From positions 1 to 28,273 of the IMG/VR virus record IMGVR_UViG_3300044568_002121: a stretch of 28,273 bases of DNA; one strand, written 5' to 3'. Below the pieces are notes generated by a model. It was not told the DNA's origin. It saw nothing but the letters and a program-made list of their open reading frames with translations, and searched no databases. A program made the position numbers and the translations under genes. Shown here piece after piece: positions 927 to 28,273 of the stretch. The number at the start of each line of letters is the position of its first letter. Positions within the stretch are counted from its first letter, which is position 1. The DNA comes from a virus.

Positions 927-1310
927 TTAGCAATTCCACTTTTTTAAGGCTAATGCTTTTCTTGTTGGTCTACCTTTTTCATCTTTCATTGGTCCTTTAA
1001 CACCCGACATTCTAGCACAAAATGATTTCCTACGATTTGCCGCTTTACTGCCTGCTTTCAATTCAGATGGTGGAGTTGTTACTGCCATTTGTAAATGACC
1101 GCCAGTTTCTCGATTATAAGCATCAACACCTTTCTGAGTTAATCCACCTTCTGAACTTTTATGCCCTTTAGCATCAATAGCATATTCTGTAAGTTCGTCT
1201 TCTTTTACACAACTTTTTTGTGCGCAAGGTTTAGTTCCTGGAACACGTTTGTAACCTTTCCAACAATCACAACTTTTCATTTCTGTTATAAATTCTTTAA
1301 ATGTTTTCAT
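927..1310 (-). CDS. DUF6321-like protein with internal-protein-type capsid-targeting N-terminus
   Basis: 127 aa. Residues 1-10 are MKTFKEFITE, closely matching the capsid-targeting start MKTYQEFIAE of T4 internal proteins and ending in the I-x-E motif cut by the T4 gp21 prohead protease. A cysteine cluster follows (CDCWKGYKRVPGTKPC, then C34). The C-terminal half carries SSEGGLTQKGVDAYNR, KRK/RRK-rich stretches and RKSFCARMSGVKGPM, ending KALALKKWNC; I recognise this as the DUF6321 domain of T4-like phages. Inference: it is packaged in the head after loss of the first 10 residues. The start follows AAGGAT, 11 bp below the HAD gene, so it is the third gene of the P4 operon. Biochemical function unknown; the cysteines may bind metal. 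Confidence 0.8.
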   Translation of the reverse strand: MKTFKEFITEMKSCDCWKGYKRVPGTKPCAQKSCVKEDELTEYAIDAKGHKSSEGGLTQKGVDAYNRETGGHLQMAVTTPPSELKAGSKAANRRKSFCARMSGVKGPMKDEKGRPTRKALALKKWNC

Positions 1311-1320
1311 CTTTATATCC

Positions 1321-1938
1321 TTATTTTATTAATTTAATGCCACCGTTTGCATCAGCAAAATATGCTTCAAACTTGACATTAGGAAACTCTTTTTGTAATT
1401 TAAGAAATTCCTTAAGATTACTCATAGCATCATCAAATAAACTACATCGGTCGAACTTTCCAGTCTTTAGATAGTTATGGATAATGACATACTTTTTGGT
1501 AGCTGTTGATTCGATATCATTGATATTGCCAGCACGTTCTACTCTAACTTTATCAACGTCAAAACGATGTTTTCTAAAAGTATTAAGGAACAGTTCTTTG
1601 TTATCAAAATCTGCTCTGGCAGTAACTACAATAACCCTGCTTAATGAATTCTTGAGTGAATGAGATAGAATTGCTTTTGCTCTATCCATCATTCTTGAGA
1701 TAGGTTTGGATTCTTTATTAAACTTTTCGGCACTTCTGAATTCACCAAAGTCAAATGATTCTTCATCTTTCAATTGATAGGTATTAAATTCTTGATTGGA
1801 TAATCTCTTTACGACTTTACCATCTTTCAATACAGCAATTTGAGCAGTAGTATGAAACAAGGTATCATCAATATCAAAGATACTAAGTCTACCTAGTTTT
1901 CCATCTTCTTCCGTGATATATTCTCTAAATGATTTCAT
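1321..1938 (-). CDS. HAD-superfamily hydrolase with capsid-targeting N-terminus
   Basis: 205 aa. Residues 1-10 (MKSFREYITE) repeat the T4 internal-protein targeting pattern, with I-T-E placed for gp21-type cleavage after E10. The HAD domain follows at once: motif I FDIDDTLF (nucleophile D22, acid D24, T26), motif II VVTAR around residue 105, and an acidic motif LFDDAMSNL near residue 170. A cap-like insertion lies between motifs I and II. This is a phosphatase-type HAD; the substrate (nucleotide, polynucleotide 3'-phosphate or sugar phosphate) cannot be read from sequence. The ATG overlaps the stop of the DnaJ-like gene (ATGA). Together with its neighbours it suggests an enzyme delivered with the virion. 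It could instead act in the cytoplasm if the N-terminal motif is only structural. Confidence 0.85.
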   Translation of the reverse strand: MKSFREYITEEDGKLGRLSIFDIDDTLFHTTAQIAVLKDGKVVKRLSNQEFNTYQLKDEESFDFGEFRSAEKFNKESKPISRMMDRAKAILSHSLKNSLSRVIVVTARADFDNKELFLNTFRKHRFDVDKVRVERAGNINDIESTATKKYVIIHNYLKTGKFDRCSLFDDAMSNLKEFLKLQKEFPNVKFEAYFADANGGIKLIK

Positions 1939-2927
1939 ATTCTTTCAAATGTTTTTAGAAAAGTTTCTGCTTGAACTTGTGTTAATCCATTCAACTTTTT
2001 AAACATATCAAGAGTTGATTTATTTTCAGGATATGAATGATAGATACGAATTTTAGTATCAAATGAATATGCACCTTTCTTTTCACCGATACCCATAAGT
2101 GACCAAGAAGGCATTCTCATAATAACACTTCTACGAATCATGGCAAATCCATCTTTTAGATTTACTAAATAAACATTATCTGGTTTGTTCCAATTAGTTA
2201 TTTCAACTTCTTTTTCTAATCCTAATATGAAGTCTGATTTAGTCATTTTCTTATCTGAAGCAACTGTCATCTTTTTTAGTTTTGCTTCTGGATAAATCAT
2301 TGATGGATCTGTAAACAAGGAATGGTCAACTTTAGAATTATAATCACGTTGAGCCATCTTTTGTTTTTTCATATTGGCATAACCATAAGCAGTTATACCC
2401 ATTGGATATGAAAGATTTTCGTTTGAAGATAATCCTTTTGTTGGTCTTTCTAAGTTTGGAAGATAAACTGAAATATCAAGGTCAAATGCTATTTTACCAT
2501 CTGATGTTTTAAATTCGGATGTAAATCCTGCAAATGATGGATTTGTAACCTTACTGTTATCTCTAAAGGTAGTTGTTACATTGAACTTTTGACCAAAAAG
2601 TTTTTCAAAATAATTGGCAAATATTTCAGGTTTAAATTTAGATTTTAAATCTTTCTCTACAAAATCAGCATGTTTCTTATATTTTTCAGCAATTGCATCC
2701 CAATCAACACCACCTTTACCTGAAGTTGATTTAAGCATCTTATAAGCAACATTGACCTTTTTCATCATTTCAACATCACCACCTTTATCAGGATGATGTT
2801 TATTTGATGCTACTTGATATGCTTTTTTAACATCATCAGCAGTATATGTTCCACTTAAACCAAGAACTTCTTTGGCTAATGGCAAAGTCATTGTGGTTTC
2901 TAGTAGATAATCTTTGAATGAATACAT
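1935..2927 (-). CDS. DnaJ-domain protein with capsid-targeting-like N-terminus
   Basis: 330 aa. Residues 1-10 (MYSFKDYLLE) follow the same pattern as the two downstream genes and end in L-L-E, a valid L-x-E prohead protease site. A J domain spans about residues 14-67, with the diagnostic HPD at 45-47 (KHHPDKGGD) and helix VNVAYKMLK. J domains stimulate the ATPase of DnaK-type chaperones. The remaining ~260 residues are not a Gly/Phe or zinc-finger DnaJ region and match no family I know; a lysine-rich central part and beta-rich C-terminus are visible. First gene of the P4 unit, translationally coupled to the HAD gene. Possible roles are recruiting host DnaK during head assembly or after injection; both are inference. 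Confidence 0.8.
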   Translation of the reverse strand: MYSFKDYLLETTMTLPLAKEVLGLSGTYTADDVKKAYQVASNKHHPDKGGDVEMMKKVNVAYKMLKSTSGKGGVDWDAIAEKYKKHADFVEKDLKSKFKPEIFANYFEKLFGQKFNVTTTFRDNSKVTNPSFAGFTSEFKTSDGKIAFDLDISVYLPNLERPTKGLSSNENLSYPMGITAYGYANMKKQKMAQRDYNSKVDHSLFTDPSMIYPEAKLKKMTVASDKKMTKSDFILGLEKEVEITNWNKPDNVYLVNLKDGFAMIRRSVIMRMPSWSLMGIGEKKGAYSFDTKIRIYHSYPENKSTLDMFKKLNGLTQVQAETFLKTFERI

Positions 2928-2956: not shown

Positions 2957-2985
2957 ATTATAACGTATTTATTAAAAGTTGTCAA
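2957..2985 (-). promoter_or_regulatory. Sigma70-like early promoter cassette (P4)
   Basis: TTGACA (2980-2985), 17 bp, TATAAT (2957-2962), minus strand. The -35 box begins 3 bp after the frd stop codon. Drives the DnaJ-HAD-DUF6321 unit. Confidence 0.85.
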
Positions 2986-6568: not shown

Positions 6569-6597
6569 ATTATAATCTATTCAATTCAAATTGTCAA
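6569..6597 (-). promoter_or_regulatory. Sigma70-like early promoter cassette (P5)
   Basis: TTGACA (6592-6597), 17 bp, TATAAT (6569-6574), minus strand, 3 bp after the preceding stop codon. Probable source of a nine-gene unit ending with thyA and frd. Confidence 0.85.
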
Positions 6598-6940: not shown

Positions 6941-6969
6941 ATTATAACTTATCTAATTTCGAATGTCAA
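6941..6969 (-). promoter_or_regulatory. Sigma70-like early promoter cassette (P6)
   Basis: TTGACA (6964-6969), 17 bp containing AAATTAGATA, TATAAT (6941-6946), minus strand. Drives the 101-aa gene. The bases around the -35 box, AAGTGTTGACA, also occur at P5. Confidence 0.85.
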
Positions 6970-12754: not shown

Positions 12755-12783
12755 ATTATAACAACACTAAGGAAATTTGTCAA
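12755..12783 (-). promoter_or_regulatory. Sigma70-like early promoter cassette (P8)
   Basis: TTGACA (12778-12783), 17 bp, TATAAT (12755-12760), minus strand. It starts 1-2 bp after the dsbA stop codon. Drives the 366-aa gene, rnh and the DUF6433 gene. Confidence 0.85.
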
Positions 12784-15612: not shown

Positions 15613-15641
15613 ATTATAAACTACCTAATTTAACATGTCAA
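15613..15641 (-). promoter_or_regulatory. Sigma70-like early promoter cassette (P11)
   Basis: TTGACA (15636-15641), 17 bp, TATAAT (15613-15618), minus strand. The run ATTAGGTAGTTTATAAT is identical in promoter A, and TTACTCATACTTTGAAA after the -10 is identical in P6. Confidence 0.85.
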
Positions 15642-21302: not shown

Positions 21303-22324
21303 ATTTTTTTCCATTGTGTAAGTAATAAGGTAGCAGCAATACCTGAAGCGGTATTGTTACTTATAAGCATTTCAATTTCATTTTTTGTGTGACCTGATTG
21401 AGCTAATTCATTGATATCTTTCTCAAGAATAGTTTCAGGTAATAAACATATATTATAATTCTTTTTTATATATTTGTCAACTGATTTAACAATGGCAATA
21501 TTTCTAGGTTCATTATCTACAATAAGAACAATCTTATCCTTATGAGTTTGCATAAACTCTGAATCAAATGCAGATACACCTGAGGCAGCAATACAATTAT
21601 CGATAAACAAAGAATCTAATTGTCCTTCTGTTACATAGATAGTTTTGGTAACATCTACTCTTTCCAACCCATAAAGAAGTTGTTCATTTCCTAACTTGAC
21701 ATTATGATATCGTAACATTTCATTACCAAATGCTCTACCAGCCCAACCTGTTAATTCACCAGATTGATTAAAATGCGGTATAACCAATCTAGGTATATCT
21801 TCATTAGTATTCATATCTGCTTTGTAATGAGTTTTTACCCATTGTTTATACTTAGGACAGAAGTATAATAGATTCCATTTATCTTTAGGGATTTTTCTAT
21901 TCTTTACATAAAGTAAAGCAGGATGATTTTCATTCAAATCAGATATTTTATATAGTTCATCTAATGGAGAAGTTTTCTTTGGAATAGAAAACTTTGGTGT
22001 TGAATCTGGAAACACAAATGCTGGTGTATGATTATGATTACAATTAGATTTGTATTTTTCTAGGACATATTCTGAATACAGATTATGATCCAGATGTTCT
22101 AGAAGTTTAGAAAAGGTTGTTCCAATATTACAATTATGACATCTATACAAAAGTGTACCTTTTTTGGAATAGATGTATCCCCTTGCTTTTGTTTTATTTT
22201 TAGTTGAGTCATTACAATAAGGACAAGAAAAGTTCCAAGTCTTATTGTTTTGTCTTTTGAAATTTCTAACTCTAGTTGATATCATTGATGCAAATTTTAC
22301 ATCAACATAATATGATAAACTCAT
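21299..22324 (-). CDS. 61: DNA primase (T4 gp61-like)
   Basis: 341 aa, close to T4 gp61 (342 aa). Synthesises RNA primers for lagging-strand replication with the replicative helicase. N-terminal zinc-binding domain with C34, C37, C62 and C65 (SCPYCNDS and RCHNCN). The TOPRIM core follows: VTEGQLDSLF with catalytic E233, and LIVDNEPRN with D270. PRLVIPHFNQSGELTGWAGR is the conserved strand before it. AGGAG precedes the ATG, and promoter P12 lies just upstream. First gene of the replication and dNTP unit. Confidence 0.93.
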   Translation of the reverse strand: MSLSYYVDVKFASMISTRVRNFKRQNNKTWNFSCPYCNDSTKNKTKARGYIYSKKGTLLYRCHNCNIGTTFSKLLEHLDHNLYSEYVLEKYKSNCNHNHTPAFVFPDSTPKFSIPKKTSPLDELYKISDLNENHPALLYVKNRKIPKDKWNLLYFCPKYKQWVKTHYKADMNTNEDIPRLVIPHFNQSGELTGWAGRAFGNEMLRYHNVKLGNEQLLYGLERVDVTKTIYVTEGQLDSLFIDNCIAASGVSAFDSEFMQTHKDKIVLIVDNEPRNIAIVKSVDKYIKKNYNICLLPETILEKDINELAQSGHTKNEIEMLISNNTASGIAATLLLTQWKKI

Positions 22325-26122: not shown

Positions 26123-26560
26123 CTATTTAATCATTGAACGCAATTTCCATGCGTGTTTTTTGTGAGCTGCAAGTCTTTCTGCAATAAAATTGGCAAATCC
26201 CTGTTCATTGTTATCTGTTGCTTCTTTAAATGTTGTATTTAAAGTGTCAATAACTATTTCGTTATCTCTATACAAATTATTAAGCATTTCTTCAACAAAA
26301 TTAGGTTTAATGATATCTTCTGCTATGGATTTATATTTATTTATTTCCATTAAACTTATTGGAGTATAAGCATCCAATGCTCTAATATATTCGGCAAAAT
26401 CATCAATAGAACCATATATTTCTGCATACATATCTCCAAAGAAATCATGATATTGTTGAAAATCTGAAGATTCAACATTCCAATGATAAGATGCTGTTTT
26501 AAAATATAATGTAAAAGTGTTTGCAAATGCTATATTCGATACTGCTGTTAATCTATCCAT
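26123..26560 (-). CDS. Dps-like miniferritin (145 aa)
   Basis: Four-helix ferritin-like protein. Ligand pattern of Dps: H26 and H38 (12 apart, in SYHWNV and QQYHDFF), then D53 and E57 (in SIDDFAEYIRAL). E. coli Dps numbering H51/H63/D78/E82 and Listeria H31/H43/D58/E62 have identical spacings (12, 15, 4). The C-terminal AAHKKHAWKLRSMI fits the last helix. Dps oxidises and stores iron at dimer interfaces and protects DNA. The N-terminal DNA-binding Lys tail of E. coli Dps is missing. Next to virion genes, so it might be packaged or act late. Overlaps the upstream stop (TAATG). Confidence 0.82.
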   Translation of the reverse strand: MDRLTAVSNIAFANTFTLYFKTASYHWNVESSDFQQYHDFFGDMYAEIYGSIDDFAEYIRALDAYTPISLMEINKYKSIAEDIIKPNFVEEMLNNLYRDNEIVIDTLNTTFKEATDNNEQGFANFIAERLAAHKKHAWKLRSMIK

Positions 26561-28273
26561 TATTTTTTCTCAATTGGGTGAAGTCTAGTATTTTCTATTT
26601 TTCTAATTTTTGGTGCTAATTTCATAGACATTCTACTTAATACTTTTCCTTTACGTTTAATGATTCTTTCAATACGTTCTTTTTCTTGTATAGAAAGTTG
26701 GCTTAAAGGTTTTTTAGCAAGTTTTTGTTTCATTAACTTAACAGCCATAACTCTTGCTCTATGATTTATCTTAGCAGAAGAAGATCTTGTATGCAAAGCA
26801 AGTTTAAGTTTACGTTCTCTTTTAGAAGCAGATTGTTTGAATCTAATTGAAGCACGAATACGTTCCATTCTAGATAAAACTTCAGTGATATAATCTTCTT
26901 TAAGATGACCAACGTGAGTTCCTTCATCATCTACAATATGAAGTTCATCATCTTCATAAGCATCAACGATATCTTCAAGATTATCGATATGTTTAATCAT
27001 TGCCTCAATTTCATCTTCAGATTCATCTTCAGGCATTTCTTCTTCTTCTTTTTGTTCCTCTACTTCTTCTTTTTTATAATGTATTTTTTGTCTACGGAGA
27101 TAATCTTTGTTAGCATTTGGTTCAATACCAGCACCTACTCTTGTTTGAGGGCCATGTTTATCATCTTTAGTTGTATCAAAATCACTATCATTAGTTGGAA
27201 TATCATCTGAATCATAATCGGATGGACCGCCTCTATCATCAGCATCTTTATCAGAAACTCCAGGTTTACCTAAGGTAAATACATTCTTTCCTTTATTGAC
27301 TTTTGCTGCTTCTTCAATTTTAGGAGCAATCAATTTCTTATCATATTTGATACCTGCTTGATCCGCAGTCGATAACATATTTTTAATAGTATCGATGTAT
27401 TCTGAGTGCATAGGTTTATTTCTAATTTTTCTAAGTGCCATATTTATCAATTCTTCTGGTGAAGATTTAACAGCCTCAATACCTAATGCACCAGCAATAA
27501 TGCGTGCAACTTTTATTTTATCTGCACTTGAATATTTTATTTTTTTAGATTCTTCTTCGTTTGTCATAGTTTCTTCCGATATAGGAGTTACATCTTGTAA
27601 CCATTTTTTAGTAGTATAACCTAATTTATCTTCTAAGAAAAGGTAATTTGTTCCTCTACTTAAAATTGTATACAGTATTTTATCTGATTCTACAAGGTCA
27701 CCAATATTAAATATCTTACCTTGAAAATATTGTTCTCTAACTGAATAACTTTCTGTTATTGATTCTTTACCCATACCTACTCTTATATCATTCATTAATT
27801 GTTTACCATCACTATCTTTTACCGTGTGAGGTAATCCTTTTTTAAATTCTGCATAATTACCCTCTAAAGCAACAGTTCTCATTTTAGTTCCAGACATACC
27901 AGAAGCATCATCAGCATCAGGATCTCTTTCACCAGCAGATATTACTTGAATAGAATCGTAATTGAAATCAATACCGTTATATTGATTTAGAAGTTTTTCA
28001 AAGGCTACAACTCTATCAGAACCAGCAACCATAATAAGATTTTTATATTTCTTATTAAGTTCTTTAGCGACTTCCATAAAAGTTCTTTCTTGGTCGTTGG
28101 CTGCTTTGAAGTTTGAATGAGGAAACAATAACTTCAGATAATGAATCTTTCGGTCTACTGTTAAAGGATTTTTCTTTTTGTCTTGAGTTTTAGATGCATA
28201 GATAATAGCATCTGCATTATGAGATTTAGCAGTTTTCTCAACAGCAGAAACTAATAAAGCATGACCAGTTGTT
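26560..28273 (-). CDS. Nucleotidyltransferase-containing head polyprotein, N-terminus beyond window
   Basis: At least 570 aa; the frame is open to the window edge, so the TTG at 28128 is not the start. At the edge, PTTGHALLV-like text (TTGHALL) is the (H/T)-x-G-H motif of NMN/cytidylyl nucleotidyltransferases; GMSGTKMR near 27890 is the second motif. Then come SH3-like KIFNIGDLVES...GTNYLFL...KKWLQDV, a helical module with KIKVARIIAGALG, an acidic linker, and a basic helical C-terminal module (ERIRASIRFKQSASKRERK...) after DYITE. I-x-E protease-type sites lie after ESITE (about 27751), KIEE and DYITE (about 26881). Inference: an NAD- or nucleotide-forming enzyme fused to head-targeted modules. 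Confidence 0.8.
   Translation of the reverse strand, partial: TTGHALLVSAVEKTAKSHNADAIIYASKTQDKKKNPLTVDRKIHYLKLLFPHSNFKAANDQERTFMEVAKELNKKYKNLIMVAGSDRVVAFEKLLNQYNGIDFNYDSIQVISAGERDPDADDASGMSGTKMRTVALEGNYAEFKKGLPHTVKDSDGKQLMNDIRVGMGKESITESYSVREQYFQGKIFNIGDLVESDKILYTILSRGTNYLFLEDKLGYTTKKWLQDVTPISEETMTNEEESKKIKYSSADKIKVARIIAGALGIEAVKSSPEELINMALRKIRNKPMHSEYIDTIKNMLSTADQAGIKYDKKLIAPKIEEAAKVNKGKNVFTLGKPGVSDKDADDRGGPSDYDSDDIPTNDSDFDTTKDDKHGPQTRVGAGIEPNANKDYLRRQKIHYKKEEVEEQKEEEEMPEDESEDEIEAMIKHIDNLEDIVDAYEDDELHIVDDEGTHVGHLKEDYITEVLSRMERIRASIRFKQSASKRERKLKLALHTRSSSAKINHRARVMAVKLMKQKLAKKPLSQLSIQEKERIERIIKRKGKVLSRMSMKLAPKIRKIENTRLHPIEKK

Follow-up and report, generated by a model that had tools for sequence, protein, structure and literature searches.

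A T4-type capsid-targeting tag on three consecutive phage proteins, one of them a J-domain co-chaperone, probably marks cargo injected with the viral DNA

The window, i.e., the whole stretch of DNA analysed here, is a 28,273-bp IMG/VR fragment with a GC content of 30 % and nearly all of its genes on the minus strand. Next to genes for DHFR and thymidylate synthase lies a compact set of three genes, in which the J and HAD genes overlap by 4 nt and the HAD and DUF6321 genes are separated by a gap of 10 nt. The features that matter for what follows are:

2957..2985, minus strand: sigma-70-type promoter TTGACA-17-TATAAT at the head of the three-gene set (12/12 match)
1935..2927, minus strand: J-domain protein, 330 aa, HPD motif intact at residues 45-47 (PF00226, E=7e-9, over the cut-off)
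2898..2927, minus strand: tag of the J protein, MYSFKDYLLE (ORF start; residue conservation; low pLDDT outside the fold)
1321..1938, minus strand: HAD-superfamily phosphatase-like protein, 205 aa (catalytic motifs and fold search)
1909..1938, minus strand: tag of the HAD protein, MKSFREYITE (positions 4, 7, 8 and 10 kept in 25/25 homologues)
927..1310, minus strand: DUF6321 protein, 127 aa, basic and Cys-rich (PF19846, E=1e-25)
1281..1310, minus strand: tag of the DUF6321 protein, MKTFKEFITE (ORF start; the DUF6321 group has 17 tagged members)
26560..28272, minus strand: cytidylyltransferase-like protein, its N-terminus beyond the window end (PHROG 3041)
487-515, 719-747, 6569-6597, 6941-6969, 12755-12783, 15613-15641 and 21452-21480, minus strand: other perfect promoters (TTGACA-N17-TATAAT)

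The window thus has eight perfect TTGACA-N17-TATAAT promoters where 0.07 would be expected. All of them lie on the coding strand, and they are likely strong early promoters read by the host RNA polymerase.

An earlier note on this DNA had named the three products a J-domain protein, a HAD phosphatase-type enzyme and a Cys-rich DUF6321 protein, and these assignments hold. The first and the last rest on the Pfam matches listed above. The HPD motif of the J protein is invariant in the homologue alignment and, being intact, should enable the protein to engage host DnaK; for its C-terminal part no convincing match was obtained among solved folds. The DUF6321 protein contains six Cys after residue 10 and has a pI of 9.7. 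The HAD protein gave neither a Pfam match nor a convincing PDB sequence match, but its DxDxT, T, K and DD motifs are invariant in 26 homologues and its structure model matches HAD phosphatases, with the class B phosphatase AphA as best hit and the Lem4 HAD domain and T4 Pnkp ranking lower. Since the model resembles AphA and, more weakly, T4 Pnkp, it suggests a nucleotide or nucleic-acid phosphatase.

What unites these proteins is their N-terminus. The earlier note had also pointed out that the three consecutive ORFs start with the ten residues given above and that an I/L-x-E falls at residues 8-10 of each, in register with T4; the ORFs are indeed found at that place on the minus strand and their translations confirm the register. 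The T4 start with which they had been compared, MKTYQEFIAE, is that of the internal proteins IPII and IPIII. In T4, the N-terminal ten residues of IPIII are enough for import, and mutagenesis has assigned residues 4 and 7 to capsid targeting and residues 8 and 10 to processing by gp21 (reviewed in PMC9026906). The window tags carry an aromatic residue at 4 and 7, I/L at 8 and E at 10, precisely the four positions mapped in T4. Written as a strict motif, M..[FYW]..[FYW][IL].E at an ORF start, this pattern has a probability of 1.1e-4 per start, based on residue frequencies at ORF starts; among the 48 window genes it is seen three times against 0.005 expected (P about 2e-8). As a positive control, the motif was searched as a DNA pattern in T4, where it matches only ipII, ipIII and gene 61.1, while no match was found in T7 or in the podovirus HTVC031P.

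Gene 61.1 of T4 (L230:667-831, equivalent to NC_000866 18966-19130, minus strand) encodes 54 aa that start MKTFKEFIKE and continue into a Lys-rich tail. It is absent from the internal proteins listed in PMC9026906, and its sequence suggests that the product may be an unrecognised internal protein.

The functional positions of the tag are conserved at the amino-acid level in divergent homologues. Of the HAD homologues, 25 are aligned from residue 1 on, and all of these have F at position 4, F/Y at 7, I/L/V at 8 and E at 10 (25/25 in each case), while positions 2, 3, 5, 9 and 11 vary widely; the tag is kept on homologues down to about 30 % identity. The conserved positions are encoded by several codons, and the tag is thus not a nucleotide signal. 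In the J-domain homologues (n=9, 23-76 % identity) M1 and E10 are invariant, and exact tags are present on the J proteins of Desulfovibrio phage SRB7757 (MKSFKEYISE), Variovorax phage V45v66 (MNRYESYLRE) and several metagenomic contigs. Both phage genomes also encode a Peptidase_S77. In SRB7757 (PV062637, 3493-5046, minus strand) several hundred residues, which may be an intein, split the S77 match without interrupting the open frame.

The tag also behaves as a module that is separable from the folded cargo. In the structure models it lies outside the confident fold, with a pLDDT of 53 against a mean of 91 for the HAD protein and of 46 against 82 for the J protein. Untagged versions of the same cargoes exist among HAD homologues of other phage groups and among DUF6321 homologues. 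The J homologues of Lw1 and POP12 and the cytidyltransferase of HTVC008M also lack the tag, and the HAD protein of G003 has no clear one despite the presence of gp21 in that record; these cases count against a packaging role. Across cargoes, 112 unique ORFs with the strict motif were counted in 224 loci, compared with a median of 0 and a mean of 0.65 for 1,512 permuted arrangements of the residue classes, a count that is enriched because the loci were fetched largely by homology to the HAD, DUF6321 and J proteins. They are spread over about 30 cargo groups, a few singletons of which may be chance, and include HAD, DUF6321, DUF6267 and J-domain proteins, cytidylyltransferases and unknowns. Tagged genes often stand in tandem, as with five consecutive ones in G009.

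By sequence, the source phage is T4-like. Its primase has high-coverage matches in 2,331 phage records, many Escherichia, Klebsiella and Synechococcus phages among them, the best being those of Methylophilales phage Melnitz (45 %) and Pelagibacter phage HTVC008M (41 %). Melnitz, the cultured phage with the primase closest to that of the window, has a tandem island of one exact tag and three variants at genes 15-18 (L333:3215-7878), which start MQGFKTFLSE (gene 15, exact), MLTLINFSKYITE (gene 16), MKKFSELTSE (gene 17) and MKKFSEIIEA (gene 18, whose product is cytidylyltransferase-like). Among the other records, G008 is collinear with the window over most of its length, and G007 shares with it the HAD and DNA ligase proteins at 74-78 %. 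The window cytidylyltransferase is 74 % identical to its counterpart in the syntenic G008, which starts MKSYKYFLKE, and is on this comparison a probable fourth member of the tagged set. Directly downstream of its gene lies a ferritin/Dps-like gene (PF00210; 26123-26560, minus strand).

A T4-type tag calls for a prohead protease. The 28-kb window fragment is too short to show gp21, which was sought in the relatives instead. Where a long record contains head genes together with a strictly tagged HAD gene, it also encodes a gp21-type protease and gp23; the combination of tagged HAD gene, gp21-type Peptidase_S77 and gp23 is present in G001, G005, G007 and G009, and a gp21-type S77 protease is also found in G003. 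Since the gp23 proteins of the four records retain an L-x-E in the N-terminal region, near the T4 propeptide site, the I/L-x-E specificity of the protease is plausibly the same as in T4. G002, which has neither an S77 or gp23 match nor strict tags, was considered as a negative control and dropped; its contig stops just after portal and scaffold-like genes, so the absence of gp21 means little.

Virion proteomes published for T4-like cyanophages include enzymes for which no route into the particle is known. For S-CREM2, 52 of 219 proteins were detected in virions (PMC10665884, Table 3). All three of its annotated genes with the strict tag are represented there, namely the SAM hydrolase gp6 (MKDFDSFLEE), the APH/ChoK-like kinase gp14 (MKRFDAFLTE, with a GTG start) and the cytidylyltransferase gp154 (MKNFSSFLTE), which corresponds to P=0.013, or P=0.003 if only non-structural proteins are counted. 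When the motif is relaxed, five of the six proteins that carry it are detected (P=0.003, or 0.0002 for non-structural proteins), values that are indicative only because this set was drawn up with the N-termini already in view. The virion NMNAT of S-SCSM1 (ORF91) starts MKSFLQFLKE and the virion cytidylyltransferase of S-SZBM1 MRFRQFIIE, a tag one residue shorter. Against this, three small proteins are missing from the virion lists given for these phages: S-SZBM1_191 and _192, which bear the strict tag, and SSCSM1_30, which bears a near-tag. For S-CREM1, the proteome (14 proteins) was too shallow for use. The cyanophage authors offered either carriage in the virion, with no stated route, or contamination, and those of the S-CREM2 (PMC10665884) and S-SCSM1 studies mention that incomplete purification could also explain the enzymes. 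Because tagged enzymes of related phages occur in purified virus particles, the label shared with the window proteins is probably that of proteins injected together with the viral DNA.

The S-CREM2 virion protein gp12 (OR473000, 10313..7704, minus strand), annotated as Cas9-like, has a tag-like RFASFMAE at residues 18-25 and sits in a run of MS-detected genes, gp12-gp15.

Sequence comparison thus supports a T4-type capsid-targeting interpretation of the tags, and we consider it quite likely that the three window proteins are T4-like internal (ejection) proteins whose residues 1-10 form a cleaved propeptide of the IPII/IPIII type. In such a scheme, the aromatic residues 4 and 7 would bind the prohead core and a gp21-type protease would cut after the I/L-x-E at 8-10, i.e., after residue 10. 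The freed basic cargo, consisting of the J-domain co-chaperone, the HAD phosphatase, the DUF6321 protein and probably the cytidylyltransferase, would be retained in the head with the DNA and then ejected into the host. The predicted mature forms of the three proteins have a pI of 9.2-9.7, while a pI of at least 9 is reached by 29 % of the window ORFs; their basic character lends weak support to this reading. Packaging, cleavage and injection of these proteins are what we infer from the tag, and proteins delivered in this way would act before any phage gene is expressed. Among the ejected proteins of T4, IPI disarms restriction, IPIII is needed on a particular host and Alt modifies RNA polymerase (PMC9026906), and by analogy the window proteins may have a similar early role. 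The most likely one, still speculative, would be takeover of the cell in the first minute or counter-defence. PADLOC returned no match for the three window proteins or for three other tagged proteins. Speculatively, the J protein could recruit host DnaK and thereby refold co-injected cargo or remodel a host target.

The same tag could import the proteins into the prohead for a task in head assembly, with J for example as an assembly chaperone, after which they would be degraded or remain inert. Such a role agrees with the effect of T4 IPIII on head morphogenesis (PMC9026906) and with the occurrence of DUF6321 domains elsewhere in structural proteins and beside capsid genes. However, most of the tagged cargo resembles enzymes and is exchanged freely between phages, and no part in assembly is obvious for the SAM hydrolase, kinase and cytidylyltransferase, which are present in finished virions. 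We judge an assembly role to be unlikely.

Readings in which the motif is not a capsid tag fare worse. That it serves as another N-terminal signal, for example a feature of the translation start or a short helix with a host or phage protein as its cytoplasmic partner, would account for the few strictly tagged proteins missing from virion proteomes, but targeting and cleavage have been mapped in T4 to just the four positions that are fixed here, tagged proteins are enriched in S-CREM2 virions, and the varied codons at the conserved positions rule against a nucleotide signal; such a signal is very improbable. Chance resemblance, or a recently copied start sequence that has no function, has hardly any probability at all. 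Two of the three window tags do share 25/30 nucleotides, and one may therefore be a copy of the other. Against this stand the permutation control and the P value for the window, as well as the conservation of amino acids at positions 4, 7, 8 and 10 over divergent codons. The internal-protein reading is thus the one we retain.

A second class of tag may exist in another phage group, where HAD, nucleotidyltransferase and Cys-rich proteins start M.[AILV].[DEKQ]L[FL]E, which likewise ends in L-x-E (examples at L038:7443 and 9980, L041:8136 and 9685, L042:2618 and 6227, L046:8902, L194:1496 and L211:6260). It gave 23 matches against a permuted mean of 0.9, a contrast that is indicative only because the motif was defined from these examples. 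S77 was not found on the contigs examined, which are mostly fragments, and a search of these records for Peptidase S78 gave none. Taken to its widest, the T4 capsid-targeting sequence might serve T4-like phages in general as the address under which exchangeable sets of enzymes are delivered in the virion (NAD-pathway transferases, SAM hydrolase, kinases, HAD phosphatases), with the second tag class as its counterpart in another lineage. A delivered J co-chaperone would then enlist host DnaK, allowing cargo that has been threaded through the tail to refold and to act ahead of phage transcription. We put this forward tentatively and regard it, as a whole, as rather doubtful.

At a more modest level, phage proteins that enter the virion and are injected appear to be predictable from a ten-residue sequence motif. 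The motif provides one explanation for the enzymes repeatedly found in cyanophage virions and predicts many more virion proteins, including a co-chaperone and possibly the T4 gene 61.1 product. In the non-subscription literature searched, no survey of capsid-targeting sequences beyond T4 was found, and the use of the tag is much wider than that literature describes.

The closest known system is the capsid-targeting sequence of T4 IPII and IPIII (Mullaney and Black 1996, as reviewed in PMC9026906 and PMC9958956), said to be conserved only in these two among the T4 core proteins (PMC9958956). The window proteins share with it an N-terminal decamer that is aromatic at positions 4 and 7 and has I/L at 8 and E at 10, as well as a basic cargo in a T4-like phage, with a gp21-type protease known from the relatives; they differ in that the cargo consists of J-domain, HAD and DUF6321 proteins that are not IP-like. 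T4 Alt, an ADP-ribosyltransferase, parallels the proposed route as an enzyme that is packaged into the head, undergoes trimming by gp21 and is injected, but its propeptide is a different one of 7 residues and its C-terminus is cut as well (PMC9026906). Alt and the window cargoes showed no relation in sequence. The J-domain proteins of pseudotevens (Lw1, POP12 and RB43 relatives) are homologous to the window J protein over about 300 aa, and in Lw1 and POP12 their genes lie near frd and td as in the window, but unlike it they have no clear IP-type tag. The virion cytidylyltransferase/NMNAT, SAM hydrolase and APH/ChoK kinase of S-CREM2, S-SCSM1 and S-SZBM1, seen by mass spectrometry, carry the same tag on a cargo that differs from the first three window genes, and their source papers propose no targeting signal. 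The window thus probably presents a known targeting mechanism with a new cargo, which includes a J-domain co-chaperone.
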